DNA from: an uncultured Bacteroidales bacterium
GTDB lineage: Bacteria; Bacteroidota; Bacteroidia; Bacteroidales; Paludibacteraceae
Direction: 5' to 3'
NCBI GenBank assembly: GCA_902784585.1
Contig: CACZVM010000003.1
Coordinates: forward strand, 124,001 to 188,000
Length of the DNA stretch: 64,000 nt
This document shows, one piece after another, positions 21,400 through 43,599 of the stretch (its first letter is position 1; each line of letters begins with the position of its first letter). The position numbers were made by a program, and so were the translations under genes. Under the pieces are notes generated by a model. That model was given only the letters and a program-made list of their open reading frames with translations, searched no databases and was not told the DNA's origin.

Positions 21400-23886
21400 A
21401 TGAATATTTCGTATAATTGGCTCAAACGCTACATTACGCTGCCTGATGATGCGCAGACAGTAGCAAAGATCCTTACATCTATTGGTCTGGAAGTAGGAAC
21501 GGTAGAAGAAGTAGAAACTATCCGAGGCGGCTTGCGCGGCCTGGTGGTGGGTGAAGTGCTGACCTGTGAACCCCACCCCAACAGTGACCATCTTCACATC
21601 ACTACAGTGAATATTGGCACCGAGGTGCTGCCTATCGTATGCGGTGCGCCCAACGTGGCTGCCGGACAGAAAGTGATAGTAGCCACGATCGGAACGGTGC
21701 TCTACGACGGCGACCAGAGTTTCACGATAAAGAAAGGCAAGCTGCGCGGCGAGGACTCGTTCGGTATGATCTGTGCTGAGGATGAGATAGGTGTTGGTAC
21801 CGACCATGCCGGTATTATCGTGCTGCCGGCTGACACGCCGGTAGGCATGAAAGCGGCTGATTACTACCATGTAGAGAACGACACGCTTATCGAGGTGGAT
21901 ATCACACCTAACCGCTCTGACGCAGCCAGCCATTATGGTGTAGCGCGCGACCTGTATGCGTATTACAAGAGCCATCAGCATTCAGACATCCGTATTCAGA
22001 AGCCTTCAGTAGAGGCATTTGATGAATTAAAAATTAAAAATGAAGAATTAAAAATTAACGTCTTCGTCGATGCCCCGGAGGCTTGTCCGCGTTATTCGGG
22101 CGTGAGCATTAAGGGTGTGGAGGTGAAAGAGAGCCCCGAATGGCTGAAGAAAGCACTGACGACTATCGGACTGCGTCCGATCAATAATATCGTGGATGTA
22201 ACCAACTTCGTGCTGCATGAGTGCGGTCAGGCTTTGCACGCCTTCGATGCCGATAAGATAAAGGGCAACGAGATTCATGTGCGTTTTGCCAAGGCCGGTG
22301 AGAAATTCGTGACCTTGGACGGCGTGGAGCGCGAGATGGATGAGCGCGACCTGATGATTGCCAATGCCGAAGAAGCCATGTGTATCGCCGGTGTGTTCGG
22401 TGGACTGGAGAGCGGCGTGACCGAACAGACGAAGAACGTATTCCTGGAGAGTGCGTATTTCGAGCCTGTCTCGATCCGCAAGACCAGCCGTCGTCATCAG
22501 CTGCAGACTGACGCCTCGTTCCGCTACGAGCGCGGTTGCGATCCCAACAACACTATCTATGTGCTTAAACGCGCTGCCCTGCTGATCCAGGAAGTGGCGG
22601 GTGGAAGCATCGCTATGGATATCACCGATAACAGCTCTGCTGACTTCGCTCCTTGGCCAGTGACCATCGAGATCAGTCGCGTCAATAGCCTGATCGGTAA
22701 AGCGATTGGTGAAGATAAGATTGAGACTATCCTCAAAGCGTTGGAGATCGATATTGTCGCCAAGAACGGCGATGCATGGCATCTGGCTGTGCCGCGTTAC
22801 CGAGTAGATGTACAGCGTGAGTGCGATGTAGTGGAAGATATCTTGCGCATCTACGGCTACGATAATATTGAGTTTCCTGAGAAACTGAACACCAGCCTCT
22901 CCTACGGCATCAAGCCTAATCCGGAGTTCCTACGCCGACGCATCGCCGAACAACTGACCGCACAGGGCTTCAATGAGATACTAAACAACTCGCTAACCAA
23001 AGTAGCCTACTACGAGCCGCTGCAGTCGCTCACCTTGGATTCGTGCGTCAAAATCATGAATCCGCTGAGCCAGGACCTAGGTGTAATGCGTCAGACCCTA
23101 CTCTTCGGCGGACTGGAGTCGATCGCCCGCAACACGAACCGCAAGCAGAGCGACCTGAAGTTCTATGAGTTCGGTAACTGCTACCATTATAATGGGGAAT
23201 TAAAAACTAAAAATGAAGAATTAATTCAAAACGACCCATTAAAAGCCTATTCCGAGGAACCGCATCTGGGAATGTGGCTGACGGGTAATAAAGCCGCACT
23301 GAGTTGGGTGCGTCGCGAGGAGAAGACCAGTTTCTATCAGCTGCGCGCGTACGTGAACAATATACTCGCGCGTTTGGGTGTCGACCTGAGCAAAGTGACG
23401 GTAGAGCGTTTGGAGGATGAACTGTTCTCGGACGGTCTGGTAATGAAAGCCGCTAACGGTAAAGTATTAGGCTTTATGGGTATCGTGGCTCGCCAGCAGT
23501 TGAAAATATTTGACATCGACCAGGAGGTGTTCTACGCAGATCTAGACTGGAACGCATTACTCAAACAGAACAAGCAATATAAAGCCGTCATCACCGACCT
23601 ACCCAAATATCCGGAGGTGAAACGCGACTTCGCGTTGCTGGTGGACAAGTCCATCGAGTTCGCCGAACTGGCGCGCGCTGCTTTTGCTACCGAGAAAAAA
23701 CTGCTGAAGAACGTCTATCTGTTTGATGTCTATGAGGGCAAGAACCTCGAAGCCGGCAAGAAATCATATGCACTTTCGTTCATTCTGCAAGACACAGAGA
23801 ACACCCTAAAAGATACGCAGATAGAGAACATAATGAACCGCCTGAAGGCGACATTCGAAGAGAAATTCCATGCTACCCTGCGGTAG
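21400..23886 (+). CDS. pheT: Phenylalanyl-tRNA synthetase beta subunit
   Basis: An 828-residue subunit that together with PheS charges tRNA-Phe. The N-terminal core (MNISYNWLKRYI) is followed by an EMAP-type tRNA-binding OB fold (residues about 40-155, ending SFGMICAEDEIG), the B3/B4 editing region (EACPRYSGVSI, then ASFRYERGCDPN), B5, the catalytic-like core (RRRIAEQLTAQGFNEILNNS) and the C-terminal anticodon-binding FDX-ACB domain (YPEVKRDFALLVDKS to the end). Length and domain order are normal. Two linkers, residues about 209-219 and 600-611, are encoded by the same AATTAAAAATTAAGAA-type words that fill intergenic gaps, giving ELKIKNEELKI and ELKTKNEELIQ. The gene follows the giant/barrel cassette and precedes prfC. 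Confidence 0.97.
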   Translation: MNISYNWLKRYITLPDDAQTVAKILTSIGLEVGTVEEVETIRGGLRGLVVGEVLTCEPHPNSDHLHITTVNIGTEVLPIVCGAPNVAAGQKVIVATIGTVLYDGDQSFTIKKGKLRGEDSFGMICAEDEIGVGTDHAGIIVLPADTPVGMKAADYYHVENDTLIEVDITPNRSDAASHYGVARDLYAYYKSHQHSDIRIQKPSVEAFDELKIKNEELKINVFVDAPEACPRYSGVSIKGVEVKESPEWLKKALTTIGLRPINNIVDVTNFVLHECGQALHAFDADKIKGNEIHVRFAKAGEKFVTLDGVEREMDERDLMIANAEEAMCIAGVFGGLESGVTEQTKNVFLESAYFEPVSIRKTSRRHQLQTDASFRYERGCDPNNTIYVLKRAALLIQEVAGGSIAMDITDNSSADFAPWPVTIEISRVNSLIGKAIGEDKIETILKALEIDIVAKNGDAWHLAVPRYRVDVQRECDVVEDILRIYGYDNIEFPEKLNTSLSYGIKPNPEFLRRRIAEQLTAQGFNEILNNSLTKVAYYEPLQSLTLDSCVKIMNPLSQDLGVMRQTLLFGGLESIARNTNRKQSDLKFYEFGNCYHYNGELKTKNEELIQNDPLKAYSEEPHLGMWLTGNKAALSWVRREEKTSFYQLRAYVNNILARLGVDLSKVTVERLEDELFSDGLVMKAANGKVLGFMGIVARQQLKIFDIDQEVFYADLDWNALLKQNKQYKAVITDLPKYPEVKRDFALLVDKSIEFAELARAAFATEKKLLKNVYLFDVYEGKNLEAGKKSYALSFILQDTENTLKDTQIENIMNRLKATFEEKFHATLR
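22021..22059 (+). repeat. In-frame AATTAAAAATTA repeat in pheT, site 1
   Basis: GAATTAAAAATTAAAAATG then AAGAATTAAAAATTAA encodes ELKIKNEELKI in the linker between the tRNA-binding domain and the B3/B4 region. The same words form the pheT-prfC spacer. Confidence 0.8.
23191..23234 (+). repeat. In-frame AATTAAAAACTA repeat in pheT, site 2
   Basis: GGGGAATTAAAAACTAAAAA then TGAAGAATTAATTCAA encodes NGELKTKNEELIQN, again in a linker, just before LKAYSEEPHLGMW. Confidence 0.8.
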
Positions 23887-23912
23887 AATTAAGAATTAAA
23901 AATTAAGAATTT
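23885..23912 (+). repeat. AATTAAGAATTAAAA spacer repeat
   Basis: The short gap between pheT and prfC consists of AATTAAGAATTAAAAATTAA-type words, the same vocabulary as the two in-frame sites in pheT. Confidence 0.75.
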
Positions 23913-23919
23913 ATTTTTC

Positions 23920-25455
23920 GTGTTAGCTAATACAGATCAACAGGAAATATTACGTAGAAGGACGTTTGCCATTATCTCCCACCCTGACGCCGGTAAGACG
24001 ACGCTGACGGAGAAACTTCTGCTCTACGGAGGTGCTATCCACGTGGCCGGTGCCGTGAAGAGCAATAAGATCCGCAAGACGGCGACGAGCGACTGGATGG
24101 AGATAGAGAAACAGCGTGGTATATCGGTGGCAACGTCCGTGATGGGCTTCGATTACCGGAGAAGCTCGGTACCCGGACATACGCAGCCGGATGACACCGT
24201 TTTTCATATCAACATTCTCGACACCCCCGGACACCAGGACTTTGCGGAAGACACTTTCCGTACTCTAACTGCCGTTGACTCAGCCATCGTAGTGATCGAC
24301 TCAGCCAAAGGTGTCGAGACGCAAACGCGCCGACTGATGGAGGTATGCCGGATGCGCAAGACACCCGTCATGGTCTTCATGAACAAGATGGACCGTGAGG
24401 GTAAAGATCCGTTCGATCTGATGGATGAAGTGGAGCGCGAACTGCAGATACACGTAATGCCCGTAACATGGGCGAACGGACAGGGACTGAAGTTCGAATC
24501 TGTCTTCGCACTCGACAACCGCCCGAAAGATATCGGCGGTAAACTGGCAGAAGACCTAGAGATGATAGACGGCGTTTATCCGGAATTTGACAAAGAAGCC
24601 TACCTGCGCGGTGAACTGGCACCGGTGTTCTTCGGCTCTGCCTATAAGACGATAGGTGTGCAGGAGTTGCTGGATTTTCTGGTAGCCAATGCACCTTCTC
24701 CGCTTCCTGTCACTGCCGAAGAAAGGACTGTGGAACCAATGGAGGACAAGTTCACCGCTTTCTGCTTCAAGATACACGCTAACATGGACCCGAACCACCG
24801 CAGTTGCATCGCGTTCTTCAAAATATGCAGCGGTAAGTTCCTGCGCAACACCTATTATTATCATGTGCGTAAAGACCAGCAGATGCGTTTTGCCGCACCT
24901 ACCTGCTTTATGGCGCAGAAGAAAGAGACTGTGGATGAGGCGTTTGCAGGCGACGTAGTAGGTCTGCCGGACACCGGCAACTTCAAGTTAGGCGACACAC
25001 TGACAGCAGGAGAGCATTTGCATTTCAAAGGTCTACCCTCCTTCTCGCCGGAGATGTTCAAATATATCGATAATGCGGATCCGATGAAGCAGAAGCAGCT
25101 GGAGAAAGGTGTGAACCAACTGATGGACGAAGGTGTAGCGCAGCTGTTTGTAAGCCAGCTCAACGGACGCAAGATCATCGGTACCGTAGGACAACTCCAG
25201 TTTGAGGTAATCCAGTACCGTCTGGAGCATGAATATCAGGCGAAATGCAAATGGCAACCGCTGCAGATGTACAAAGCCTGCTGGATAGAGAGCGATGACG
25301 ATGCGGAACTGGACATGTTCAAGAAACGTAAGGCACAGTACATGGCGTACGATAAAGAAGGTCGCGACGTATTCATGGCCGACAGCGCGTACGTGCTGAA
25401 CATGGCGCAACAGGACTACAAACATATAACATTCCACTTTACCTCGGAATTCTAA
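23920..25455 (+). CDS. prfC: Peptide chain release factor 3
   Basis: A 511-residue translational GTPase that recycles RF1/RF2 from the ribosome after termination. It is read from a GTG start. G1 is [15 protein letters not shown], the switch I region [11 protein letters not shown]3 DTPGHQDF, and G4 NKMDRE. The RF3-specific domains II and III follow ([19 protein letters not shown], then [14 protein letters not shown] and [16 protein letters not shown]). The length is typical. It lies just downstream of pheT behind a repeat-filled spacer, in a translation-related block. Confidence 0.97.
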
Positions 25456-25516
25456 AAACCGAAACACCGGAAATACAGAATGCCAGACAATTATTTAATC
25501 AAAAAATTATACTAGT

Positions 25517-26818
25517 ATGAAAAACAGATCATTACAGATTCGCCTCATTGTGTTCAACTTTCTGGAGTTTGCTGTATGGGGCGCGTACCTCATCTCGATG
25601 GGCACCTACCTTTTCAAACACGGAATGGCTCACCAAATCGGCTGGTTCTACTCGATTCAAGGTGTAGTCAGCCTCTTCATGCCGGCGTTGATGGGAATCG
25701 TGGCAGACCGTTGGGTAGAAGCACAGAAGTTACAAAGTATCTGTCATTTCCTGGCCGGTGCCTTCATGATTGCAGCCGGTTGGTATGGTTTGCAGAGCGG
25801 CCAAGACGTACAATTCACTACGCTGTTTACCCTTTACACGCTGTCGGTAGCATTCTACATGCCGACGATTGCGCTGACCAACTCCGTGGCATTTAACGCC
25901 TTGGTTAAAGAAGGAATGGACACGGTGAAGGATTTCCCTCCGATTCGTGTGTTCGGTACCGTCGGTTTCATCGCTGCCGAGTGGAGTGTGGATTTATTAG
26001 GTATTCAAGCTTCGCCGCTGCAGTTCATCCTCAGCGGTGGTCTGAGCCTTTTGATGGCCGGTTATTCGTTGAGTCTGCCGGCTTGCCCTGTCAAGAAAGT
26101 GGAAGGCAAAGTGGACCTGGTAGAAGCATTAGGACTGAAAGCGTTTGCATTGTTCAAGCAGAAAAAGATGGCGCTGTTCTTCATTTTCTCGATGCTACTG
26201 GGCATGTGTCTACAAGTGACCAACTCATACGCCAACCCGTATATCACTTCGTTTGAGAACATTCCCGAGTTCGCCAATACGTTCGGCGTACAGCACGCAA
26301 ATATTCTGATTTCGATTTCACAGATTTGCGAAGCACTGTGTATTCTGGCTATTCCGTTCTTCCTGAAACGCTTCGGAATCAAGAACGTAATGCTCATGGC
26401 CATGTTCGCCTGGGTGTTCCGTTTCGGCTTCTTCGGTGCCGGCGACCCCGGTTTCCCGGGCGTGCTGCTGTTCGTGCTGAGTTGCGTTGTTTACGGCTTT
26501 GCATTTGATTTCTTCAACATATCCGGTGCGCTGTACGTGGATCAAGAGACCGAACCGGCTCAGCGTTCATCTGCACAGGGTCTGTTCATGATGATGACAA
26601 ACGGTTTAGGCGCTACAATCGGTACGCTGTCCGCTCAAGTGATTGTCAACAAACTCGTCAATGCGCACGAGGTAGTGGCCGAAGGTCCAATGGCTGTCTG
26701 GAACGGTTGGATGCACGCTTGGTATCTGTTCGCAGGCTTTGCGCTCGTGGTTGCTATTTGCTTCTGGATCTTCTTCCCCAAAACTCCGGTGAACAAGGAC
26801 ATTGAGGTGAAGCATTGA
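25517..26818 (+). CDS. Nucleoside permease, MFS family (NupG-like)
   Basis: A 433-residue inner-membrane protein with 12 predicted hydrophobic segments. It begins with the family pattern LIVFNFLEFAVWGAYLISMG and includes YSIQGVVSLFMPALMGIVADRW and PIRVFGTVGFIAAEW, typical of the NupG/XapB nucleoside:H+ symporters. It probably imports nucleosides by proton symport. The stop overlaps the start of the next gene (TGATG), so the two are coupled. A 60-bp gap from prfC shows no clear promoter. Confidence 0.9.
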   Translation: MKNRSLQIRLIVFNFLEFAVWGAYLISMGTYLFKHGMAHQIGWFYSIQGVVSLFMPALMGIVADRWVEAQKLQSICHFLAGAFMIAAGWYGLQSGQDVQFTTLFTLYTLSVAFYMPTIALTNSVAFNALVKEGMDTVKDFPPIRVFGTVGFIAAEWSVDLLGIQASPLQFILSGGLSLLMAGYSLSLPACPVKKVEGKVDLVEALGLKAFALFKQKKMALFFIFSMLLGMCLQVTNSYANPYITSFENIPEFANTFGVQHANILISISQICEALCILAIPFFLKRFGIKNVMLMAMFAWVFRFGFFGAGDPGFPGVLLFVLSCVVYGFAFDFFNISGALYVDQETEPAQRSSAQGLFMMMTNGLGATIGTLSAQVIVNKLVNAHEVVAEGPMAVWNGWMHAWYLFAGFALVVAICFWIFFPKTPVNKDIEVKH

Positions 26819-27483: not shown

Positions 27484-28016
27484 CGCGTATAGGATTATTA
27501 AGCGACACACATGGTCTGCTGGACCCGCGCGTACTAGAGCACTTCCGGGACGTAGATGAAATATGGCACGCAGGCGACATCGGCAGCGATGACGTGCTGC
27601 GTCGGCTACGTGAATACAAACCCACTCGGGCAGTCTATGGAAACATGGATAGCGGAGATGTGCGCTACTCGCTGAGTGAGTTCTATCGGTTTAAGGTAGA
27701 AGAGGTGAATGTACTGATGACGCACATAGGCGGCTACCCCGGGCGATATAACCCATGGCTGATTCCATGGTTTAGAAAAAGTCTGGAAGCCAGAATATCC
27801 AATGACAAATCTCAAATGTCCAATGTGATTGACCTCTTTGTCTGCGGGCACAGTCATATACTAAAAGTACAATACGACAACCAGTTTAAATTCCTGACGA
27901 TGAACCCCGGTGCGGCCGGAAAACAAGGTTGGCAACCATGCCAGACTCTACTGCGTTTCTGCATTGACGGAAGTGAGATCAGGGATCTGGAAGTGATAGA
28001 ATTGGACCGAAAATAG
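27480..28016 (+). CDS. Metallophosphoesterase, YfcE/MJ0936 type
   Basis: A 178-residue cytoplasmic phosphodiesterase. The metal-binding motifs are all present: LSDTHG, HAGDIGSDD, YGNMDSGD, THIGG, and CGHSH. The start overlaps the preceding stop (ATGA). Residues about 104-116 (ARISNDKSQMSNVID) contain an insert encoded by CAATGACAAATCTCAAATGT-type repeat words, placed just before the strand leading to CGHSH. Relatives hydrolyse phosphodiesters in vitro; the natural substrate is unknown. A palindrome pair and an orphan promoter follow directly after the stop. Confidence 0.9.
   Translation: MTRIGLLSDTHGLLDPRVLEHFRDVDEIWHAGDIGSDDVLRRLREYKPTRAVYGNMDSGDVRYSLSEFYRFKVEEVNVLMTHIGGYPGRYNPWLIPWFRKSLEARISNDKSQMSNVIDLFVCGHSHILKVQYDNQFKFLTMNPGAAGKQGWQPCQTLLRFCIDGSEIRDLEVIELDRK
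27790..27826 (+). repeat. In-frame repeat in the phosphodiesterase gene
   Basis: ATATCCAATGACAAATCTCA then AATGTCCAATGTG encodes ISNDKSQMSNV. It is built of CCAATG and CAAATG words, is AT-rich against its surroundings and keeps frame. Confidence 0.65.
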
Positions 28017-28017
28017 C

Positions 28018-28061: not shown

Positions 28062-28067
28062 AAAAAA

Positions 28068-28100: not shown

Positions 28101-28104
28101 AGCG

Positions 28105-32741: not shown

Positions 32742-32790
32742 CGAACTACGTTCGCATTTTTTTGATTTGTGATTGGTGATTGGTGATTTA
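32742..32790 (-). repeat. Hairpin plus ATTGGTGATTGGTG words in the tRNA leader
   Basis: A perfect hairpin GCGAAC/GTTCGC with a three-base loop stands next to GATTTGTGATTGGTGATTGG-type words, just upstream of tRNA-His. It has the same composition, AT-rich word plus short hairpin, as other repeat blocks here. Confidence 0.65.
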
Positions 32791-32912: not shown

Positions 32913-33458
32913 TTACTCGAAATTAGAGCGCCAAAAAGAGGACGTTATATCTTCCCAAGAGTCCCCTACCCGCTTGTAAAGGCGCTGGTTGGTTGTCGGC
33001 GATTTGAGTCCGCCAAGCGACTCAATGTACGGGCCGAGTTTGATATAATCCAATGGAAAAGCCTCTCCCCTGCAATATTCTACGAAAGGCCGCTGAACGT
33101 TCGATTGAGCAGAGCTATTCACCTCTAAAGGGAAGGGAGCCTGCGGGCGGCCGGAGTACCAGGCTGTTTTGATTGGTGATTGGTGATTGGTGATTGGTAA
33201 TTGCTTTATGTATGCGGCGAGGCGGAGGACTTCTTCGGGATCGGCATCGCCGCCCATGAAGCAGACGCAAGTGACCTGAGTGCCATAGCGTGCCAGGAGT
33301 CCGTCAAGCAGGTCGGTGGTAAGCGGTTCGCCAATATCTTCCCAGAGATGCTTGGAGTGGCATCCCGGGCAATGACAAGGACACCCGGAGAGGTTGAGCG
33401 CAAGCGTCACCTCTCCGGGGATCTCTTGGAAAACGATATCGTAGGATGCGACCTTCAA
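32913..33458 (-). CDS. nrdG: Anaerobic ribonucleoside-triphosphate reductase activating protein
   Basis: A 181-residue radical-SAM activase that installs the glycyl radical on NrdD. The iron-sulfur motif CPCHCPGC (CxxxCxxC) lies at residues about 26-33, in GCPCHCPGCHSKHLW. FMGGDADPEEV and the end GPYIESLGGLKSPTTNQRLY match the family. Between VLRLAAYIK and TAWYSGR there is an insert, QLPITNHQSPIK, encoded by ATTGGTGATTGGT repeats. A further segment (FPLEVNSSAQSNVQRPFVEY) before LDYIKLGPYI is longer than in typical NrdG and may be another insert. It follows nrdD with a repeat-filled gap of about 70 bp, so an nrdDG operon is likely. Confidence 0.93.
   Translation of the reverse strand: MKVASYDIVFQEIPGEVTLALNLSGCPCHCPGCHSKHLWEDIGEPLTTDLLDGLLARYGTQVTCVCFMGGDADPEEVLRLAAYIKQLPITNHQSPIKTAWYSGRPQAPFPLEVNSSAQSNVQRPFVEYCRGEAFPLDYIKLGPYIESLGGLKSPTTNQRLYKRVGDSWEDITSSFWRSNFE
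33167..33202 (-). repeat. In-frame ATTGGTGATTGGT repeat in nrdG
   Basis: Four to five copies of GATTGGT/AATTGGT words encode LPITNHQSPI inside NrdG. The same word appears in intergenic gaps at 8700-8800, 10493-10533, 32767-32787 and 45704-45737. Confidence 0.85.
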
Positions 33459-33460
33459 TT

Positions 33461-33528
33461 CACAATTCAGAATTCTTAGCCCCGAAGGGCACGATTATTT
33501 GACAAGGTCAAATTTTCACAATTCACAA
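33461..33528 (-). repeat. Double-hairpin repeat element, copy A
   Basis: A unit of about 55 bp, flanked by CACAATTC and CAGAATTC words, contains GCCCCGAAGGGC (a UUCG-type hairpin on the minus strand) and TTTGAC-AAG-GTCAAA. It fills the nrdD-nrdG gap. Two more copies lie in the nrdD leader. Confidence 0.9.
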
Positions 33529-35640: not shown

Positions 35641-35770
35641 ATAATTCACAATTCACAATTCAAAATTCTTAGCCCCGAAGGGCACGATTATTTGACAAGG
35701 TCAAATTTTCACAATTCAGAATTCTTAGCCCCGAAGGGCACGATTATTTGACAAGGTCAAATTTTCATAA
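35641..35770 (-). repeat. Double-hairpin repeat element, copies B and C in tandem
   Basis: Two tandem copies of the unit seen at 33472-33526, with period about 56 bp, separated by CACAATTCAGAATTC. On the minus strand each has an ATTTGACC/GGTCAAAT-like hairpin followed by GCCCTTCGGGGC. They lie in the nrdD leader just upstream of the ribosome-binding region. Confidence 0.9.
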
Positions 35771-35771
35771 T

Positions 35772-36146: not shown

Positions 36147-38207
36147 TTATTTCACGATGGTACCTTGAGCGTTGTACTCTACACCATTCTTGATGATAAT
36201 GAGTTGACCGTTACGAACCGTCTTAACAGTGTTCACACCAGCCTCGGTATTCTCAATGCCTTCCGGATACTCACCCAGACGGCTGTAGATACCTTGTCCC
36301 CAAGTGTTGGTAGCAGCTACCTCAATAACGCCATTCTCCAGAACAGTTACCGTACCGTTAACGATAAGCCACAGCGGAATATTGATATAACCCTCGTTAT
36401 CCAGCGAACCAGCGTACGAACCGTAGATGTATTGGTTAATAGATCCTGCGGTTACCGTACCTGCATCGTAGCTCTCGTTGATAGGATAAACGCCTGCAGG
36501 CAGCTCGGTCGTACCGGCAGCTACGTTGAACTCGATGGAGATTGTATTGTTCTGAGCGTCCTGAGCATCAACGACGAATACGTTGTACTGTGCCAGATAT
36601 TGATCGTCAATATTGTATGTCGGGAACTTGTAGTAGAAGCCCTCATCCTGGCTGTCGTACTGATTGCCCTGCGGCTGCGGCTCGTAGTCCTCAACCGTAG
36701 CCGTGAGGTTGAGCGTGAACTCAATTACATCTGCGCTATTCACGTAGTTCTGTCCCTTGAGCGTACCGGTGATGGTAGCGTTGGTGCCGCTAACAGCCAC
36801 AACGACATTCGCATCTACCATATCATAGTACAGCGTGTCCGAACCAACCACTTTCACTACATAGGTGTAGTCAGCCATCAGGTCAGAACGTCCGTACGTA
36901 CCCGGGATAGAAGTAGCATAAGCAGCGATGGTTACCATCTGGCTAGCCGTAGAACCGATGAACTGCCAAGCTTGACCCTCATAGTTGGTGAGCTTACCGC
37001 TCATGGTGATGGTCTCTTGGCTGGTAGCGTCCGGAATAACATATTGCAGGTTGAGCGTATATTGTACGCCGTCCATGCTCAGTATAGTACCGGTGATAGC
37101 TACGCCGGTAGCGGTGTTAGCTACGGTGATCGTACCCTCGTAGATATCGATCTCGTCTTCTTCACCCTCGATGCTCAGGCTAACTTCATCTGCGCTGAAC
37201 GTACCGAAATAGTTTTCTGCCGGCAGGTACATGCTTACGGTGTAGTCCTCGTTGCTTGCCTCTGCGATGATAATGCTGAACACACTTGCATAGCTATCAT
37301 CCAACACGAGGTTGGTAGCGGTGATGGTCTCGAAAGTCTCTGCGGTCGGAGCCGTGAAGGAGAACGTTACATGATATACGTTACCGTCACCGGCCAGGAT
37401 CCAACCCTCCAGTGCAATAACACCGTTGTTCTCAGCTACTACGCAGTGAGCGCTAACAGCCTCGAAATCATTCACGTAGGTATATTCCAGTTCCACGTCC
37501 TCTTCGCCGTACGTACCTGCGGGAGCACCCTCAGCACACGGGAAAGTAAAGGCGATCTCATAGTCCTCGTTCTCTGCACCCAATTGGCACAGACCATCGT
37601 CGTAGATAGGCTTGTTTGCATTACCCGTGAAGACAACGTCAATGGTGTCACCGGTGATGATGAACGGAGCCTGATCATAGGTCAGGGTGTAGTTGTTACC
37701 CAGCGTGTCGGTGAAAGCAGCAGCAAAATGAACCAACTCCTGCTCCTCGTACATCGAGACCGTCTTGGTCAGCGAAGCCGAAGCATACGCCATCTTGCCG
37801 TTAGCACCACGCATGTACGAATAGTTCGGGATCATGTCAGCCAGCGTGTAAATCTGGTTGAGAGCCAACTCTTGCGTTCCCTCTGCAACGACGATGTCGA
37901 AGTAGTAAACGTTCTCGTCAGCGTCGTACAGCTTTACCCATACGTCGTTGTCAGTCGTGTAGAAGTTCTCAGCATAGTCCGTGATCGTCACGTTGTAGTT
38001 GTCGAGCTTAGCCTGCGGAGCCTTGAAAGCGACAGCAGCACGCTCTGCTTTCTGCAGACTCGTTGCCGGAAGGGTCTGATGAGCCTTTACAGTCTTCACA
38101 GCCTCCATAGCCTCTGCCTGTTTGCTCTTACCCAGCACCTTTGCAGGAGCTGCACTTGCGCTAAAAGCGATTGCGATAGCGCATACGAAAGAGAAAAATT
38201 TCTTCAT
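36147..38207 (-). CDS. Secreted T9SS cargo protein with repeated beta domains
   Basis: A 686-residue acidic protein with a signal peptide (MKKFFSFVCAIAIAFSASA). The body repeats a module of about 110-130 residues with strands such as YNVTITDYAENFY, GTYGEEDVELEYTYV and GVAITGTILSMDGVQYTLNL. The end, NTVKTVRNGQLIIIKNGVEY then NAQGTIVK, is a clear T9SS type A sorting module. The same kind of module appears in the lipoprotein at 38542-39405. The function is not recognised. Its leader is nearly identical to that of the 39405 gene, while the sequence upstream of its promoter matches that of nrdD. It ends in a strong terminator. Confidence 0.85.
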   Translation of the reverse strand: MKKFFSFVCAIAIAFSASAAPAKVLGKSKQAEAMEAVKTVKAHQTLPATSLQKAERAAVAFKAPQAKLDNYNVTITDYAENFYTTDNDVWVKLYDADENVYYFDIVVAEGTQELALNQIYTLADMIPNYSYMRGANGKMAYASASLTKTVSMYEEQELVHFAAAFTDTLGNNYTLTYDQAPFIITGDTIDVVFTGNANKPIYDDGLCQLGAENEDYEIAFTFPCAEGAPAGTYGEEDVELEYTYVNDFEAVSAHCVVAENNGVIALEGWILAGDGNVYHVTFSFTAPTAETFETITATNLVLDDSYASVFSIIIAEASNEDYTVSMYLPAENYFGTFSADEVSLSIEGEEDEIDIYEGTITVANTATGVAITGTILSMDGVQYTLNLQYVIPDATSQETITMSGKLTNYEGQAWQFIGSTASQMVTIAAYATSIPGTYGRSDLMADYTYVVKVVGSDTLYYDMVDANVVVAVSGTNATITGTLKGQNYVNSADVIEFTLNLTATVEDYEPQPQGNQYDSQDEGFYYKFPTYNIDDQYLAQYNVFVVDAQDAQNNTISIEFNVAAGTTELPAGVYPINESYDAGTVTAGSINQYIYGSYAGSLDNEGYINIPLWLIVNGTVTVLENGVIEVAATNTWGQGIYSRLGEYPEGIENTEAGVNTVKTVRNGQLIIIKNGVEYNAQGTIVK

Positions 38208-38309
38208 AATAGATAATTTTTTAGTTAATGAATTGGGTTAATACAATATAAATATTTGCATTTTTCGTACAAATAAATCATTCACGCCGCAAAATTACAA
38301 TAAATATTC
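38193..38309 (-). repeat. Duplicated leader, copy 1
   Basis: About 110 bp covering the first codons (MKKFF), the leader and the -7 box match 39394-39505 with about four differences. The leader is AT-rich (for example ACCCAATTCATTAAC) and carries no obvious open frame. Confidence 0.9.
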
Positions 38310-38321
38310 TGATTGTGCAAA
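38290..38321 (-). promoter_or_regulatory. Promoter of the T9SS cargo gene at 38207
   Basis: TAATTTTGC at 38290-38298 and TTTG at 38318-38321, 19 bp apart. TTTG is followed by CACAATCAG, as at nrdD. The leader is about 75 nt. Confidence 0.8.
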
Positions 38322-38475
38322 TTTTTTGACAACTTTTTTCAAAAAAAATAATTCACAAAGTTGTCCAAAACTTTTAGTTATATAATTGCAAATCAATAGT
38401 TTACAAAATTTATCAACAGGAAAAGTTGTCCAAAACGTAGAATTGTTGATAACTACAGGTTGTCAAAAACGTAAA
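38322..38475 (-). promoter_or_regulatory. Operator-like region shared with nrdD
   Basis: Inverted arms GACAACTTT (38328-38336) and AAAGTTGTC (38357-38365) touch the -33 box; further AAAGTTGTCC and GGTTGTC words lie at about 38423 and 38458, and TTATCAACA-like words at about 38411 and 38446. The first 80 bp match the nrdD upstream region closely. Confidence 0.6.
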
Positions 38476-38485
38476 ATAAGAGGCA

Positions 38486-38516
38486 CAAAAAAAGCTGCCC
38501 CGAAAGGCAGCTTTTA
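38486..38516 (-). terminator. Intrinsic terminator of the lipoprotein gene
   Basis: Stem AGCTGCC / GGCAGCT with loop TTTCGG, then a run of seven T on the minus strand, about 30 bp after the stop at 38542. Confidence 0.88.
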
Positions 38517-38541
38517 TGGATAAAAGATTTTCTTCTACCGA

Positions 38542-39405
38542 TTAGAAAGCCAATTTCTTTGCGCCTTTTTTCGCAATAACTTTCTTAGCAGCAAGTTTCT
38601 TCGGAGCTGTAGCAGATCCGCCTTCTTCTGCTGCTGCCGGAGCAGGAGTAATCATCGTTACCTTGTACAGCGTGTTGTTGTAGCAAAGCAGGTCTGCGCT
38701 GATGGAGATGTTGTCATCATTGCTCGGGGTAATCGTAATATCAGCTGTAAAAATATCATTCATCGATTCATCTGCCATATCAGCAACGAACGATCCGATA
38801 TACTGAGGATCCAGGTCATCCTCGGTGAACGTACCAGCCAACTCGTCAGCCCAGATACCCAACTGTACATACTCCGTACTGTCTTCGTTGTAACCATAAA
38901 CGCCCCAAAGACCATAAGCGCTGTAGCCATCATACAACATGCCCTCAGGGATGTTTACATTAACCGTCTTTTTAGCCTCCGGTTCTATATAAACGAGATT
39001 CAGCTCGTAAACATTGCCATCGTCACCGGTCAACTTACCAATAACAATAACTTTCTTACCGTTGTTCTCAACCGTTACAGTAATAGAACCTTCAGTAAAT
39101 GCAACTTCTGTTTCCGTAGCAATAATTTCAATGAACGAATAATCCGGATCAAGATCCTCTACAGTGTACATACCATCAGGTTTGGTGATCACTTTGTCTT
39201 CAGAATTCGACAAGGTAATGTAATACAAGTCGTTCTGAGCCTGTATTTGCCAAAAACCATAGTCATCAATCACGTCGGTAAACTTAACACCCTCGCTGAT
39301 GTTAACCTTAATAGTAGCATCACCTTCACCTTCACCGCCTTTGTTGCAGGATGCAAAGCTGAACGCTACCAGCGCTACAGCTGCAAAAGCAAAAAATTTC
39401 TTCAT
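38542..39405 (-). CDS. Secreted lipoprotein related to the neighbouring T9SS cargo
   Basis: A 287-residue protein. The signal sequence MKKFFAFAAVALVAFSFASC ends in a lipobox, and a Gly/Glu-rich linker follows (NKGGEGEGD). Two modules of about 110 residues (ITLSNSEDKVITKPDGMYTV and VQLGIWADELAGTFTEDD) resemble those of the protein at 36147-38207. The C-terminus is very basic (APKKLAAKKVIAKKGAKKLA), odd for an acidic surface protein, and may bind an anionic polymer. No named family. The near-identical leader suggests shared post-transcriptional control or recent duplication, but its -33 box is of a different class. Confidence 0.8.
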   Translation of the reverse strand: MKKFFAFAAVALVAFSFASCNKGGEGEGDATIKVNISEGVKFTDVIDDYGFWQIQAQNDLYYITLSNSEDKVITKPDGMYTVEDLDPDYSFIEIIATETEVAFTEGSITVTVENNGKKVIVIGKLTGDDGNVYELNLVYIEPEAKKTVNVNIPEGMLYDGYSAYGLWGVYGYNEDSTEYVQLGIWADELAGTFTEDDLDPQYIGSFVADMADESMNDIFTADITITPSNDDNISISADLLCYNNTLYKVTMITPAPAAAEEGGSATAPKKLAAKKVIAKKGAKKLAF

Positions 39406-39505
39406 AATAGATAATTTTTAGTTAATAAATTGGGTTAATACAATATAAATATTTGCATTTTTCGTACAAATAAATCTTTCACGCTGCAAAATTACAATAA
39501 ATATT
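39394..39505 (-). repeat. Duplicated leader, copy 2
   Basis: The second copy of the leader at 38193-38309. The match stops just upstream of the -7 box, and the -33 regions differ. Confidence 0.9.
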
Positions 39506-39518
39506 TGATATACGCAAG
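39486..39518 (-). promoter_or_regulatory. Promoter of the lipoprotein gene
   Basis: TAATTTTGC at 39486-39494, 20 bp, CTTG at 39515-39518, followed by CGTATATCA. Confidence 0.8.
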
Positions 39519-39582
39519 AGCGCGCGCATTTTTTATTCTTTTGTGCATCACATCCGCTATTAAACACAAAATCAGCAATTTT

Positions 39583-39650
39583 CTAAAATCACGCCATATA
39601 TACTATAAGTATATATAAGTATGGGTATGATACGTTCCGGTCTCGTTCTG
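39583..39650 (+). repeat. Dispersed palindromic repeat, copy 2
   Basis: Repeats the element at 5482-5560: TTTCTAAAATCACGCC, a TATATACT/AGTATATA inverted repeat, AGTATGGGTATGATACG, TTCCGGTCTCGTTC. It lies between the lipoprotein promoter and the end of umuC. Confidence 0.85.
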
Positions 39651-39728
39651 ATCTCGTTCTGATCTCGTTCTGATCTCGATCCAGTCTCGATCCAGTCTCG
39701 ATTCAGTCTCGATCCGGTCTCGATCACT
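39641..39728 (+). repeat. 11-bp tandem repeat array
   Basis: Eight units of 11 bp: TCTCGTTCTGA three times, then TCTCGATCCAG twice, and TCTCGATTCAG, TCTCGATCCGG, TCTCGATCACT. The period equals about one helical turn. The rest of the gap up to umuC (39729-39817) shows nothing clear. Confidence 0.85.
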
Positions 39729-39817
39729 CTTGCTCGACTTAGGCTCCAGCCTGTCCCCCCTTTTCGAAGTCAAAAATCAATTGGCTTCTCCATGATAAAG
39801 TCTCGTTAGTAAATCTT

Positions 39818-41080
39818 CTAACATTTGAGTGTGATGATGTCGGAGAGTCGTGTGGTATAGGCAGGACTCTTGGCACCGACTTCGTAGAGCGAGGCAGCCT
39901 GTTCGGTAGGTATATTCGGAGTGAAACCGATGGCTGTTTGACCATGTCGGGTGTTGATACGATCGATTGCCTGCTGCAGTCGTTCGTCGCGTTGTCGATC
40001 TCGAACATCGAAGAGTGACTGCTGTACGCCGTTGTCGGGCGAGACATTGCACACAATGACTCCGGCGCGTTTATAAGGTGTGTCAGGTCGCCACTGGGTG
40101 CGTACCACCCGCAGCAGGGCTTCCGTCATCTCATGCGTGTTAGCCGTCGGCGTAGAGAAAGTGACGGTGGCCTGGATGACAAACTGCTGCTCCTGGAAGC
40201 GCGAGGTATGGGCAAAGACGATCATCTGGCGGCAGACGGAATGCTGGCGGCGCAGTTTTTCTGCCACGCGGGCACAGAACCGCCCCATGGCCTGTTCGAG
40301 CAGGCTGCGATCGGTGACACCATGGGCGAAGGTGCGTGAGCAAGTGATGGACTGCTTCTCCGGCAAATCACGCACAGAGATACAATCTTCGCCATTAAGT
40401 TCGCGCCATGTGTTAAGGCCCGGCTGATGAAGGATGTTCTTGGCAAAAGCGGGTGTACGATTCACAAAATCCAAGGCTGTCTTAATGCCATTCAGTTGGA
40501 GTTTGGCTACCGACCGGCGACCGATGCCCCATACCTCGTCGATAGGATACGCGGCAAGTGCCTTGGTGCGTTGGTCCATCGTATCGATCACGCATACACC
40601 GGCATAGCCGGCATAGCGTTTGGCGTAGTGGGAGGCCACCTTACAGAGCGTCTTGGTAGATGCTATGCCGATGGAGACTGGGATGCCAATGCCGTGCATT
40701 ATCTCTGATCGGATACGCAGACAAAGCGTGCGTGCTTCGGCCGCGTTGCTGAGATAAGAGAGGTCCAGAAAAGCCTCGTCGATGGAATACTGCTGCAAGT
40801 CGTCGGTGTAGCGACTAAGGATACGCATGATACGCGAGGAGAGGTCGCCGTAGAGCGGGAAATTGGAGGAGAAATGGACGATGCCATGTTTCTCCGCGAG
40901 AGGCCTGATCTGATAGAAAGGCACACCCATCTTCACACCGAGTTGCTTCACCTCGTTGCTGCGCGCGACGACACAGCCGTCGTTGCCGGACAGCACCACT
41001 ACGGGCTTGTCGTGCAGGTCGGGACGGAAGACCCGTTCACAACTGACGAAGAAATTGTTGCAGTCGACGAGGGCGTACAT
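39818..41080 (-). CDS. umuC: Y-family DNA polymerase V catalytic subunit
   Basis: A 420-residue translesion polymerase. MYALVDCNNFFVSCERVF opens the palm domain with the first catalytic Asp. YSIDEAFLDLSY holds the second catalytic acidic pair. A helix-hairpin-helix (PIDEVWGIGRRSVAKLQLNG) and the little-finger domain follow (CSRTFAHGVTDRSLLEQAMG). The length fits UmuC rather than DinB. It follows umuD by 2 bp, forming the usual SOS mutagenesis operon. The C-terminal end is normal. Confidence 0.95.
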   Translation of the reverse strand: MYALVDCNNFFVSCERVFRPDLHDKPVVVLSGNDGCVVARSNEVKQLGVKMGVPFYQIRPLAEKHGIVHFSSNFPLYGDLSSRIMRILSRYTDDLQQYSIDEAFLDLSYLSNAAEARTLCLRIRSEIMHGIGIPVSIGIASTKTLCKVASHYAKRYAGYAGVCVIDTMDQRTKALAAYPIDEVWGIGRRSVAKLQLNGIKTALDFVNRTPAFAKNILHQPGLNTWRELNGEDCISVRDLPEKQSITCSRTFAHGVTDRSLLEQAMGRFCARVAEKLRRQHSVCRQMIVFAHTSRFQEQQFVIQATVTFSTPTANTHEMTEALLRVVRTQWRPDTPYKRAGVIVCNVSPDNGVQQSLFDVRDRQRDERLQQAIDRINTRHGQTAIGFTPNIPTEQAASLYEVGAKSPAYTTRLSDIITLKC

Positions 41081-41082
41081 GA

Positions 41083-41517
41083 TTAACGGCGGACGGAATG
41101 GATGGTATGAGTGATGACGCCCCAGACACCAAAGGCATTGTCCTCATCCACGCGGATGGGACTATAAGCATCGTTGTGCGGAATAAGCCAAGCGCACCGG
41201 CCGGATGGGTCGGAACGAAACTCCTTGACCGTAAACTCGCCGTCGATATACGCCGCCACATAGTCGCCATCAGCGGCCTGAAGCGAGCGATCGATGACCA
41301 CCAAATCGCCACTGAAGATACCAGCGTCCTGCATGCTATCCCCCTCGATGCGAGCATAAAACGTCGTCTCGGGATGACGAACAAGTTCGCGTGTAATGTC
41401 AATACGCTCTGTGCAGTCGGCTGCAGGCGAAGGAAAACCGGCGTGCAGATGTTCCGCCAAGGCCATTTGCGGCGACTCCTGCTCAGCAGAAGTGATATGA
41501 AGAATTTGTTCAGACAT
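41083..41517 (-). CDS. umuD: UmuD-like S24 peptidase, polymerase V subunit
   Basis: About 144 residues from MSEQILHITSAEQ, chosen because the promoter lies just upstream. The LexA/UmuD fold has the catalytic Ser in RIEGDSMQDAGI and Lys in FTVKEFRSD, with a Cleavage-site-like region near the N-terminus (HAGFPSPAAD, so Ala-Gly replaced by similar small residues). RecA-stimulated self-cleavage gives active UmuD'. It forms an operon with umuC. No recognisable LexA box was found around the promoter. Confidence 0.92.
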   Translation of the reverse strand: MSEQILHITSAEQESPQMALAEHLHAGFPSPAADCTERIDITRELVRHPETTFYARIEGDSMQDAGIFSGDLVVIDRSLQAADGDYVAAYIDGEFTVKEFRSDPSGRCAWLIPHNDAYSPIRVDEDNAFGVWGVITHTIHSVRR

Positions 41518-41536
41518 AATCGTATCGTTTTCGACT

Positions 41537-41569
41537 GCAAAAGTACAACAAAAAATTGACATATGCAAA
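41537..41569 (-). promoter_or_regulatory. Promoter of umuDC
   Basis: TACTTTTGC at 41537-41545, 20 bp, TTTG at 41566-41569, followed by CATATGTCA. The leader is about 15-20 nt. Confidence 0.8.
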
Positions 41570-41608
41570 CGCAAAGAAATAAAAAATCAACAAAAAAATT
41601 CATGCGCG

Positions 41609-41641
41609 CTTGCGTATATGAAATATTTTTTGTAATTTTGC
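41609..41641 (+). promoter_or_regulatory. Promoter of the bactofilin gene
   Basis: CTTG at 41609-41612 followed by CGTATATGA, 20 bp, TAATTTTGC at 41633-41641. Confidence 0.8.
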
Positions 41642-41703
41642 GCCCGATTTCCATAACTGATAATGAAATCATTCCCCTGAACATATAAAAAATAAGAATA
41701 ATT

Positions 41704-42069
41704 ATGGCAAATGAGAAACAAAGCGGACTGATGTTTAATGCACTGACCGCAGGAAGTAAGATCGTAGGTAACATCGCTGCCGACAGCGATTTCCGCATTG
41801 ACGGACTGATTGAAGGTGAACTGAAATGTACCGGTAAGGTAGTGATAGGCGAGAGCGGTAAGGTGAAAGGTACCATCATCTGCCAACAGGCAGAGATCAT
41901 GGGTATGCTGGAAGGCAAGGTGACCTGCCATCAGCAGTTGTCGCTCCGCAGCAGCGGACATATAGAGGGTGAGGTAGTGACCAAGACCCTGATCGTAGAG
42001 CCGGGTGCAGTGTTCAACGGTAGTTGCTCGATGGGCTCGAACGCTTCTTCTGAACCGAAGAAAGCGTAA
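41704..42069 (+). CDS. Bactofilin (polymer-forming cytoskeletal protein)
   Basis: A 121-residue protein made of a right-handed beta-helix core. The bactofilin signature is visible as SKIVGNIAADSDFRIDGLIE then GELKCTGKVVIGESGKVKG and LSLRSSGHIEGEVVTKTLIV. Short disordered ends flank the core, as usual. Bactofilins self-assemble into filaments or patches at the membrane and organise cell-wall or surface functions. It has its own promoter, divergent from umuDC. The next gene begins 200 bp later behind a second promoter-like site. Confidence 0.93.
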   Translation: MANEKQSGLMFNALTAGSKIVGNIAADSDFRIDGLIEGELKCTGKVVIGESGKVKGTIICQQAEIMGMLEGKVTCHQQLSLRSSGHIEGEVVTKTLIVEPGAVFNGSCSMGSNASSEPKKA

Positions 42070-42117
42070 TGGTACATAAAACTAAATGAAAGTTTTTTAG
42101 AAAAAAACCGATAAAAC

Positions 42118-42240
42118 CCCTTTGAATAATTAACCACTGGCGTGTTATGAGTATTTGCTTCAACGCGTCTGCTTACAAATAAATTTGCAGCAGCCTGTTC
42201 AACCAAATCCTCATCTCTGCGAGATTCAATTATTCAAAGG
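42118..42240 (+). repeat. Long-range inverted repeat in the DUF1015 leader
   Basis: CCTTTGAATAATT at 42119-42131 and AATTATTCAAAGG at 42228-42240 are perfect 13-bp complements enclosing about 95 bp, ending just before the ribosome-binding region (AAAGGAGAT). They could form a stem hiding that site if transcription starts upstream. Confidence 0.65.
42154..42188 (+). promoter_or_regulatory. Possible promoter of the DUF1015 gene
   Basis: TTTG at 42154-42157 and TAAATTTGC at 42180-42188, 22 bp apart. The spacing is 2 bp longer than at other promoters here. A start here would leave the upstream arm of the inverted repeat out of the transcript. Confidence 0.5.
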
Positions 42241-42267
42241 AGATAAACATAAAAAACATTTTCGTTC

Positions 42268-43599
42268 ATGAAAATCAAACCGTTTCGTGGTATACGACCG
42301 CCAAAGGAGTTGGTGGAAAAGGTAAGCAGTCGTCCGTACGACGTGCTCAACTCGGAAGAGGCACGCGCAGAAGCTGCGGGCAATGAGATGAGTCTGTATC
42401 ATATCATCAAACCCGAGATCAATTTTGAGCCGGGTACGGATGAGCATGACCCGCGTGTATATCTGGAAGCCAAACAACAATTCCAGCGTTTTAAGCTGAA
42501 AGGCTGGTTGGTGCAAGACCAAGAGGAGAAATACTATGTATACGCGCAGACCATTCTGGGCGGTCAGCCATCAGCCATCAGCCGTCAGCAAGATAAGACA
42601 CAGTACGGACTGGTGGTAGGAGCATGGGTGGATGACTATCTGGAGGGACGCATCAAGAAACATGAGTTGACGCGTCGCGACAAAGAGGAAGACCGTATGA
42701 AACATGTGCGTACGCTGAATGCGAACATGGAACCGGTGTTCTTTGCCTACCCTCACCGCGATGACCTCGATGCCATCGTAGCAGAAGTGACCAAAGGTGA
42801 GCCGGAATATGATTTCGTAGCAGCACCTGAGGGCTTCCGTCACACGTTCTGGGTGATTGACGACAAGGCGACAATAGAAAAGATCACAAAGATCTTTGCT
42901 GAGATTCCAGCAATGTATATCGCAGACGGACACCATAGAAGCGCTGCTGCCGCCAGAGTCGGCAGCGAGCTAAAAATGAGCACAGCAAAGCTGCTCAATG
43001 ATGAAATGAGCGCGACAAAGTCGCTCAATGATGTTCCCGAATACGAGTTCTTTATGGCGGTGTGCTTCCCAGACAACCAACTCAACATCATCGACTACAA
43101 CCGCGTGGTGAAGGACCTGAACGGGCTGACGGAAGAGGAATTCATCAAGGCACTCGAGGAGGACTTTATTGTTAAATGTTATAATGGTGACGCTTCGCTT
43201 AATGGTGAAAATGGTGTAAAGCCTAAAGGCTTGCATAATTTCTCGCTCTATCTGGGCGGAAAATGGTACTCGCTGACGGCAAAGGAAGGTCGTTACAATG
43301 ACGCAGATCCGATAGGTGTGCTGGACGTGACTATCTCAAGCAACCTGATTCTAGACAAGATACTCGGCATCAAAGACCTAAGAAGCGACAAACGCATCGA
43401 CTTTGTGGGCGGTATACGCGGCCTGGGAGAACTGGAACGGAGAGTGGACAGCGGCGAGATGAAGATGGCACTCGCCCTCTACCCCGTGACCATGCAGCAG
43501 ATCATCGACATCGCCGACTCAGGAAATATCATGCCACCGAAGACAACGTGGTTTGAGCCGAAGCTGCGGAGCGGACTGGTGGTGCATGAGTTGGACTGA
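42268..43599 (+). CDS. DUF1015 family protein
   Basis: A 443-residue cytoplasmic protein. It starts MKIKPFRGIRPPKELVEKVS then SRPYDVLNSEEARAEAAGN, the DUF1015 hallmark, and contains MYIADGHHRSAAAARVG and the end SGNIMPPKTTWFEPKLRSGL. In other Bacteroidota the family neighbours serine biosynthesis genes; here it lies between bactofilin and porE. The biochemical role is uncertain. Three stretches look like repeat inserts: residues about 100-109 (GQPSAISRQQDK), 236-257 (two tandem 10-residue units MSTAKLLNDE and MSATKSLNDV) and 303-318 (NGDASLNGENGVKPKG). Confidence 0.9.
   Translation: MKIKPFRGIRPPKELVEKVSSRPYDVLNSEEARAEAAGNEMSLYHIIKPEINFEPGTDEHDPRVYLEAKQQFQRFKLKGWLVQDQEEKYYVYAQTILGGQPSAISRQQDKTQYGLVVGAWVDDYLEGRIKKHELTRRDKEEDRMKHVRTLNANMEPVFFAYPHRDDLDAIVAEVTKGEPEYDFVAAPEGFRHTFWVIDDKATIEKITKIFAEIPAMYIADGHHRSAAAARVGSELKMSTAKLLNDEMSATKSLNDVPEYEFFMAVCFPDNQLNIIDYNRVVKDLNGLTEEEFIKALEEDFIVKCYNGDASLNGENGVKPKGLHNFSLYLGGKWYSLTAKEGRYNDADPIGVLDVTISSNLILDKILGIKDLRSDKRIDFVGGIRGLGELERRVDSGEMKMALALYPVTMQQIIDIADSGNIMPPKTTWFEPKLRSGLVVHELD
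42565..42594 (+). repeat. In-frame CAGCCATCAGCC repeat in DUF1015
   Basis: GTCAGCCATCAGCCATCAGC then CGTCAGCA encodes QPSAISRQQ. Tandem CAGCCAT words keep the frame. Confidence 0.75.
42973..43035 (+). repeat. Tandem palindromic 30-bp element in DUF1015
   Basis: Two adjacent 30-bp units, each AATGAGC-hairpin-GCTCAATGATG. The hairpins are GAGCACAGC-AAA-GCTGCTC and GAGCGCGAC-AAA-GTCGCTC, with changes on one arm matched on the other. They encode MSTAKLLNDE and MSATKSLNDV. Confidence 0.85.
43177..43226 (+). repeat. In-frame AATGGTGA/hairpin repeat in DUF1015
   Basis: TATAATGGTGACGCTTCGC then TTAATGGTGAAAATGGTGT and a hairpin AAGCC-TAAA-GGCTT encode YNGDASLNGENGVKPKGLH. TATAATGGTG-type words also occur in the intergenic block at 61950-61985 in reverse. 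Confidence 0.7.

Follow-up and report, generated by a model that had tools for sequence, protein, structure and literature searches.

Heptanucleotide tandem repeats at gene junctions and in variable protein loops of a Paludibacteraceae genus

The window, a stretch of 64,000 nucleotides (nt) from an uncultured Bacteroidales bacterium (G000:C3:124001-188000), is part of a 1.63 Mb draft genome, G000, that is 79% complete. It contains short arrays of seven-base tandem repeats (heptads), found both between genes and, in frame, within genes for conserved proteins. Genes were called with our own hexamer predictor, to which nrdG, missed by the predictor, was added by hand. Protein names were checked by family profile for PheT (TIGR00472), NrdG (TIGR02826), DUF1015 (PF06245), and YfcE (TIGR00040), and the TonB-dependent receptor was checked by its TonB barrel (PF00593). 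The pheT gene is present as a single copy in G000. All gap arrays named in a first-pass annotation of the window were found, at most a few bases from the earlier coordinates, as were the in-frame copies it reported in PheT (two, the second below threshold), NrdG, DUF1015, and the TonB receptor. The arrays are listed below by window position and strand.

6059..6088, minus strand: TTCAACT heptad array in the TonB-dependent receptor gene, SFQLSTFNFQL
8700..8841, plus strand: composite gap comprising an ATTGGTA array (8700-8726), GCCCCTTCCGT, a hairpin, an ATTGGTR array, GCCCCTTCCGT again, and a TTAATTC array
10487..10536, plus strand: ATTGGTR array that includes the stop codon of the upstream gene and ends 24 nt before the next start
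11822..11917, plus strand: ATTTAAG array, the longest of the window, extending from the end of one gene up to 1 nt short of the next start
22025..22058, plus strand: array of AATTAAR heptads in pheT (ELKIKNEELKIN, residues 208-219), in which the unit AATGAAG removes the stop, coding ELKIKNEELKI
23197..23229, plus strand: second heptad-derived insert in pheT, ELKTKNEELIQ (alignment columns 645-671), below the period threshold
23885..23911, plus strand: array in the pheT-prfC gap
27795..27827, plus strand: weak heptad-like insert in the YfcE-type phosphodiesterase gene, ISNDKSQMSNV, below threshold
32759..32788, minus strand: ATTGGTG-type array adjoining tRNA-His, upstream on the strand of the tRNA
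33170..33203, minus strand: CAATCAC heptad array in nrdG, LPITNHQSPI
35643..35668, minus strand: AATTCAC array where the anaerobic ribonucleotide reductase gene starts, running into a 56-bp repeat
42564..42589, plus strand: TCAGCCA heptad array in the DUF1015 gene
43600..43636, plus strand: AATTAAG array in the gap after the DUF1015 gene
45705..45735, plus strand: ATTGGTA array running towards thyA from the stop codon of an OmpA-like gene (by eye), 43630-45705
46536..46580, plus strand: AATTAAR/AATTCAA array filling the gap after thyA

Analysis of the window identified 14 arrays of period 7, and none in each of 10 Markov-1 shuffles. Periods 4-6, 8-10, 12, 13, and 15 gave 0 or 1 array, period 11 gave 2, and period 14, a harmonic, gave 7. 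The scan was extended to 20 further stretches of G000, making 464 kb with the window (28% of the genome). Period 7 accounted for 66 arrays in this set, against 0 in three Markov-2 shuffles; among the other periods from 4 to 15, period 11 gave 12, the harmonic at 14, left unfiltered, gave 38, and the rest gave 0-3. The words are therefore commoner than chance allows, and the pattern extends further than the first-pass annotation described. The genus of G000 is represented by more than 100 genomes, of which 101 were used for word counts, with about thirty loci read per gene. Period-7 arrays were found in several congeners (G006, 19 in 100 kb; G034, 3 in 20 kb; G029, 3 in 20 kb; G002, 6 in 100 kb; G014, 3 in 60 kb), and in 87 further congener loci, scanned at threshold 14, period 7 gave 57 arrays, period 11 gave 13, period 8 gave 11, period 9 gave 5, and other periods from 4 to 20 gave 0-3. 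Stretches of 20 genomes from other families of the order, about 373 kb together, yielded one period-7 array in total. Period 7 is strongly preferred in this genus. When arrays from six species were pooled (100 in all, 66 being from G000), 46 distinct words were counted.

The arrays occurred at 95.7 per 100 kb outside genes and 5.5 per 100 kb within genes in the 464 kb of G000, where 23 of the 66 lay wholly within genes and in frame; those outside genes reached 96 nt. The pooled set was divided between genes (39), gaps between codirectional genes (57), one divergent and one convergent gap, and two sites that had no two flanking genes. Genic arrays were 24-47 nt in length and were positioned all along genes. 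Arrays were found in codirectional gaps more often than in other gaps (35/214 vs 2/43), though this is suggestive only (P = 0.055). These distributions support the first-pass view of a mini-repeat family spread through both coding and non-coding DNA of the lineage.

A uniform test counted arrays within open reading frames of at least 200 codons. This gave 23/66 for G000 and 17/34 for congeners, compared with 0/33 for four heptad-bearing genomes of other families, 8/176 for cyanobacterial loci, and 10/43 for other phyla, each comparison set having been fetched by one word; the four other-family genomes were chosen by AATTAAR, a word with stops on both strands. For ATTGGTR words alone, 9/21 were in genes in G000 and 7/64 in cyanobacteria (P = 0.003), the seven cyanobacterial coding arrays being counted by hand. 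For AATTAAR words, the difference between G000 (2/13) and the four other-family genomes (0/24) was not significant (P = 0.12).

It might be supposed that the loops are ordinary low-complexity protein linkers, and that the DNA period simply follows from the amino acids. The sites are indeed variable in alignments. However, this explanation is refuted by the gap arrays, as the same words fill non-coding gaps at the density given above; moreover, 7 is no multiple of 3, and the peptide changes with the word between species. We regard it as scarcely tenable.

A seven-base unit leaves a remainder of one when divided by three, and so cycles through all three frames every 21 nt. Consequently, one stop triplet blocks every frame, while a stop-free word is open in every frame. 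Words with stops on one strand faced the stop-free way in 24 of 29 genic arrays (5 faced the stop-bearing way), and the stop-bearing way in 25 of 33 arrays in codirectional gaps (8 faced the stop-free way). Orientation differed between genes and gaps (Fisher's test, P = 4 × 10−6), and the gap bias alone gave P = 0.005. The remaining arrays had stops on both strands (5 in genes, 20 in gaps) or on neither (5 and 4, respectively). Genic survivors are thus filtered by stop codons and frame. Among the 29 genic arrays with a stop-free sense word, 24 had a stop on the opposite strand, compared with 14.8 expected from shuffled words (0/1000 shuffles). This excess is as if genic and gap arrays came from one word stock. 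The pattern TNA occurred in 38 of the 46 words, against 28 expected (0/2000 shuffles), and was the strongest of 48 pair patterns. We take it as a mark left by stop selection within this genus, and not as a law. As a universal word grammar it was rejected, being weaker at cyanobacterial loci (37/53 vs 29.3 expected, reached by 11/1000 shuffles) and showing no excess in other phyla (10/17 vs 8.8, 367/1000 shuffles).

The stop-bearing bias in gaps, 25 to 8, would also be consistent with selected regulatory or phase-variable elements, whereby arrays in gaps would terminate translation in every frame or define the leader of the gene that follows, and those in coding sequence would serve as frameshift switches. 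Arrays occupied 13 of 100 codirectional gaps of 10-60 nt, and 11 of those 13 were filled to at least 76%; a 7-nt step, moreover, would shift the frame of a gene. Against this, the same gap has heptads, other repeats, or almost nothing in related species, and a frameshift switch in single-copy pheT would be expected to be lethal. We consider selection for such a role improbable.

The filter is clearest for AATTAAR, which has stops on both strands. None of the eight plain AATTAAR arrays of G000 was in a gene. The 25-mer AATTAAAAATGAARAATTAAAAATT, in which one unit is altered (TAA to GAA), occurred in 67 copies in 13 of the 101 genus genomes, while the mirror control gave 0. Thirty of the 67 copies were read (32 occurrences at 30 places, as two loci overlap). 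All but one, L286, fell within a long open frame (29/30); this was in each case the only frame open, and it codes IKNE(E/K)LKI. With the repeat-coded part removed, the 30 frames formed 25 groups of unrelated frames, or 24 without L286, although the places are mutually non-independent. When the critical triplet was left free, 45 places were found, with TAA at 12, TAG at 1, and a sense codon at 32 (GAA 17, TAC 7, TCA 4, TAT 2, TTA 1, TCT 1, AAA 0, CAA 0). CAA is the only one-step stop fix that is a transition. The altered units AATGAAR, AATTACG, and AATTCAA also serve as array words themselves, and so mixed arrays of existing words fit these data better than point repair. One may go further and picture a genus with a self-spreading heptad stock, the stop-bearing form serving at junctions and a stop-free form (e.g. 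GAATTAAAAATTAAAAATGAARAATTAAAAATT, ELKIKNE(E/K)LKI) being copied between genes as a preformed peptide cassette, such that repeat insertion, and not point mutation, would drive the turnover of loops in essential enzymes. We hold this stronger version to be possible, though not probable.

Loops were compared across congeners. Alignment of PheT from 30 loci revealed five variable loops, occupied by heptads or by ordinary sequence depending on the species. Within one PheT loop the word often differed from species to species; the words included AATTAAA, AATTACG, GTCGAAA, GGGTTAC, AGGCGAA, GTACAAA, and TTGAAAG, among others. In DUF1015 and NrdG (30 loci each), the loops were empty of heptads, or contained other repeats, or contained the same or different heptad words. 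YfcE was a weaker case: the phosphodiesterase copy in the first-pass annotation is present, but it is weak and below threshold, and 2 of 30 loci exceeded threshold in this loop (L330 of G034 and L332 of G022). At threshold 11, 46 of 48 arrays over the three genes were in gap-bearing alignment columns, namely 18/20 for PheT and 17/17 for DUF1015 (such columns holding 12% of residues), and 11/11 for NrdG (56%). NrdG loci L254, L255, and L260, with a stop inside the match, were dropped from this count, and the DUF1015 array of L211, one of the 17, is at the extreme N-terminal edge and perhaps upstream of the start. Control periods 5, 6, 10, and 11 gave 0 arrays in the three genes at the same threshold, period 8 gave 6, and period 9 gave 7. 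In-frame copies therefore lie at variable sites, in agreement with their earlier placement at loops or linkers; many relatives had no such peptide or had another repeat in the same loop, and no case of the same peptide from unrelated codons was seen by eye in the PheT, DUF1015, and NrdG alignments.

A PheT tree built with the loops excluded required at least 22 loop-state changes for 24 carriers in five loops, four carriers being assigned by eye (L011 to one loop; L001, L002, and L030 to another). Relative to the solved chain 3pco_B of E. coli, both G000 PheT inserts aligned to gaps or to weakly matched residues. In an AlphaFold model of PheT (mean predicted local distance difference test score, pLDDT, 73), residues 209-219 were predicted as coil, with pLDDT of 88 for block 201-210 and 80 for 211-220; the second insert had pLDDT of 42-55, too low for structural judgement.

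Gene junctions varied in a similar manner. Among the 18 nearest loci, counting that of the window itself, 15 had pheT and prfC overlapping by 17 nt. This overlap was opened in G000 and G006 by approximately 50 nt with an AATTAAR array, a pheT stop, and a new prfC start. The prfC start could be placed in 25 of 30 loci, but placements in the distant L019-L030 seem unreliable, and L001-L018 were used alone. The gap after DUF1015 contained, by species, heptads, eight- to ten-base repeats, other elements, or almost nothing, with 7 of 30 loci above the heptad threshold. Word, presence, and length at one site thus vary between species. Eight-base, partly self-complementary repeats (GATATTTC-like, and GATCACGA) were observed in a DUF1015 loop of other congeners, as follows.

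L214 1898-1931, L215 2390-2426, L219 2418-2443, L220 1896-1931: eight-base DUF1015-loop repeats

Length changes were examined in two sister species, G088 and G083, which share 24.8 kb at 96% identity. Four of eight period-7 sites differed by exactly 7 nt, three at gene edges and one in a gap, and all were longer in G083. Of the other four, one was identical, one was equal in length with substitutions, and two were present in one species only, the difference being 19 nt at a gene edge and 54 nt within a gene. Because a 7-nt step shifts the frame of a gene, genic arrays would be under a constraint that is absent from gap arrays. With regard to the first-pass phrase 'mobile or slippage-generated', existing arrays were seen to change length by whole units, and the copying of repeats to new sites is inferred.

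The one-unit differences would be expected from pure local slippage, in which every array arose in place from a near-repeat present there by chance, without exchange among sites. The many words found at one site among congeners are consistent with this, as is the fact that G006 words are no more alike within that genome than between genomes. Three observations argue otherwise. Matches to three ATTGGTR units (overlapping matches counted) numbered 89 in G000; the genomes next in rank had 40, 23, 14, and 12, and 58 of the 101 genus genomes had none. The same altered-unit array occurred in the 24 groups of unrelated open frames, albeit at places that are not mutually independent. Finally, point mutation of a grown array would favour the transition to CAA, which was never the stop fix (0/32). 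Slippage without any exchange is therefore unlikely to account for the arrays, though it is the alternative we take most seriously.

Word likeness was 0.23 within G000, compared with 0.08 between G000 and G006 (0/2000 permutations). AATTAAR in three units was patchy across the order, being present in 19 of 149 genomes (G207, 52 matches; G000, 35). The TGGTTAR array, used as a mirror control for ATTGGTR, was itself abundant in G094 (37 matches) and G071 (14), and so is another word of a few species. Among the matches listed for the ATTGGTR array across bacteria were records titled cyanobacteria, Chloroflexi, Saprospiraceae, Chitinophagales, Verrucomicrobia, and Pyrinomonadaceae, among others. 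A word stock common to the genus and cyanobacteria was not apparent, with 5 shared words against 3.4 expected. Carriage by phage was unsupported, the ATTGGTR array occurring in 12 stretches of a viral collection, which is few.

A mobile element with its own enzyme might write the repeats, whether a transposase like that of repetitive extragenic palindromes (REP/RAYT-like) or a telomerase-like reverse transcriptase such as DRT10. DRT10 is reported to make RNA-templated tandem repeats, with a 9-nt period in one system (PMC12632851), and the gaps studied here also carry hairpin elements, at 23 places in G000 with E < 1 × 10−3, several of them adjacent. However, RVT_1 was found in 8 of 37 genus genomes and Y1_Tnp, above cut-off, in 11 of 37, and neither in the heptad-bearing G000, G006, G029, and G034. 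Both the reverse transcriptase and the REP-type transposase are thus unsupported as writers, with the reservation that these drafts are 79-97% complete, so that absence is unproven, and that template RNA was not looked for. We consider an enzyme of this kind very unlikely to be responsible.

A unit of approximately 39 bp, in which two hairpins can be seen by eye (GCCCCGAAGGGC, TTTGACAAGGTCAAA), lies between AATTCAR heptads at 35652-35771 and 33476-33514, in tandem at period 56, and is the unit found at the 23 places, several side by side; it also occurs between the anaerobic reductase gene and nrdG. At 8700-8841, a hairpin (ggtttcccc gtttaac ggggaaacc, by eye) lies between two ATTGGTR arrays, each then followed by GCCCCTTCCGT, which gives the look of a composite element. 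The junction ATTGGTGCCCCTTCCGT of this gap was found again at L031:11712-11728.

Taken together, the arrays are probably heptanucleotide tandem mini-repeats of the cyanobacterial kind that have proliferated within one genus and extended from gene junctions to variable protein loops. New sites would be seeded from the word stock of the genome itself, repeat DNA being inserted or written over the site, possibly through templated repair or short ectopic conversion, and slippage would then adjust array length. The opened pheT-prfC overlap of G000 and G006 speaks for insertion. The stop-bearing direction would suit gene junctions, and the opposite direction, or a stop-free unit at the critical place, would suit loops. 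No dedicated function need be assumed.

Several observations weigh against this interpretation. G028, of the same genus, had 0 period-7 arrays in 100 kb. G000 and G006 share a pheT insert and are non-sisters on the PheT tree, which was made by a quick method and has weak branches; the shared insert may reflect parallel gain, loss, or transfer. Several species often have one word in common at a given site (AATTAAA in 5 of 6 arrays at one DUF1015 site), which may amount to no more than descent. The same loops and gaps are also occupied by hairpin elements and by repeats of period 8, 9, 10, and 11, and the loops may simply accept any DNA. Word likeness within G006 (0.082) matched that between genomes (0.081), and the word-stock argument therefore rests on G000 and the counts of three ATTGGTR units. 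Copying to new sites was never seen directly. Lastly, the interpretation does not account for the preference of 7 over 8 or 10, which are equally frame-neutral.

Very small dispersed repeats that vary in presence or absence between relatives are reported from Nostoc (Elhai and colleagues, 2008). The closest known systems in kind are the heptanucleotide tandem repeats of the cyanobacteria Calothrix and Nostoc, alongside the GGGAATC repeats of Xanthomonas (PMC4692102). The cyanobacterial repeats are likewise tandem seven-base units, with several words, over-represented between genes (PMC4692102). In the cyanobacterial loci, all fetched by one word, period 7 gave 112 arrays with the seed word excluded, against 0-5 for other periods and 13 at the harmonic 14. 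They differ in having far fewer arrays in genes, 8/176 vs 23/66 in G000 by the same test. The arrays of G000 share with such short tandemly repeated repetitive (STRR) sequences the seven-base tandem array, the several words, and the many loci per genome. As to the STRR trait of being mainly intergenic, array density in G000 is far higher outside genes than within them, yet about a third of its arrays, the 23 noted above, are wholly genic.

Heptad arrays of TAACTGA have been described in Beggiatoaceae, Cyanobacteria, and five Bacteroidetes including Paludibacter, where they are few and mostly intergenic (MacGregor 2015, PMC4679880). The first-pass remark that no described Bacteroidales equivalent was known was, on this evidence, too strong. 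The TAACTGA arrays also adjoin start and stop codons, have one-strand stops in all three frames, and show indels between two strains mostly in steps of 7; they differ in consisting of one word, genic copies falling chiefly in small hypothetical proteins or close to the ends of proteins (PMC4679880). The present arrays have 46 words in 100 arrays and lie all along genes, conserved enzymes included. TAACTGA was absent from the 46 consensus words of the six species. The parallel drawn earlier with Rickettsia palindromic elements holds for behaviour and not for membership. Those elements are non-coding repeats that also lie in frame in conserved protein genes, where they are tolerated, but they are 105-146 bp with terminal inverted repeats (PMC2229807), whereas the genic arrays here are short and tandem.

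The arrays are thus ordinary in kind and unusual in place: heptad arrays are known, and in this genus they have entered conserved genes repeatedly. A search of the open-licence literature, as far as the texts it returned were available, found no report of such heptad invasion of conserved genes. The same loops, with different short repeats in related species, offer a natural experiment on the conversion of non-coding repeats into protein sequence, and the filter of frame and stop codons is directly readable in this genus. These data suggest a continuing invasion of functional protein genes by small repeats, with frame and stop codons determining which of them persist. The old puzzle of seven-base arrays recurring in unrelated bacteria becomes testable by comparing strains of one genus.

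Other repeats were observed in the window. A 30-bp unit present twice at 42974-43033 (83% alike) is in frame in the DUF1015 gene and contains an inverted repeat by eye (GAGC...GCTC), with related units in L208, L209, L214, and L216. Eleven-base tandem repeats (CGTTCTGATCT, TCTCGATCCAG) occur at 39633-39725. At 48987-49162, a 96-bp repeat of 1.8 copies lies in a long open reading frame, and the frame of the printed unit reads as a charged stretch (PKKRGRKKK ... EEPAQ).

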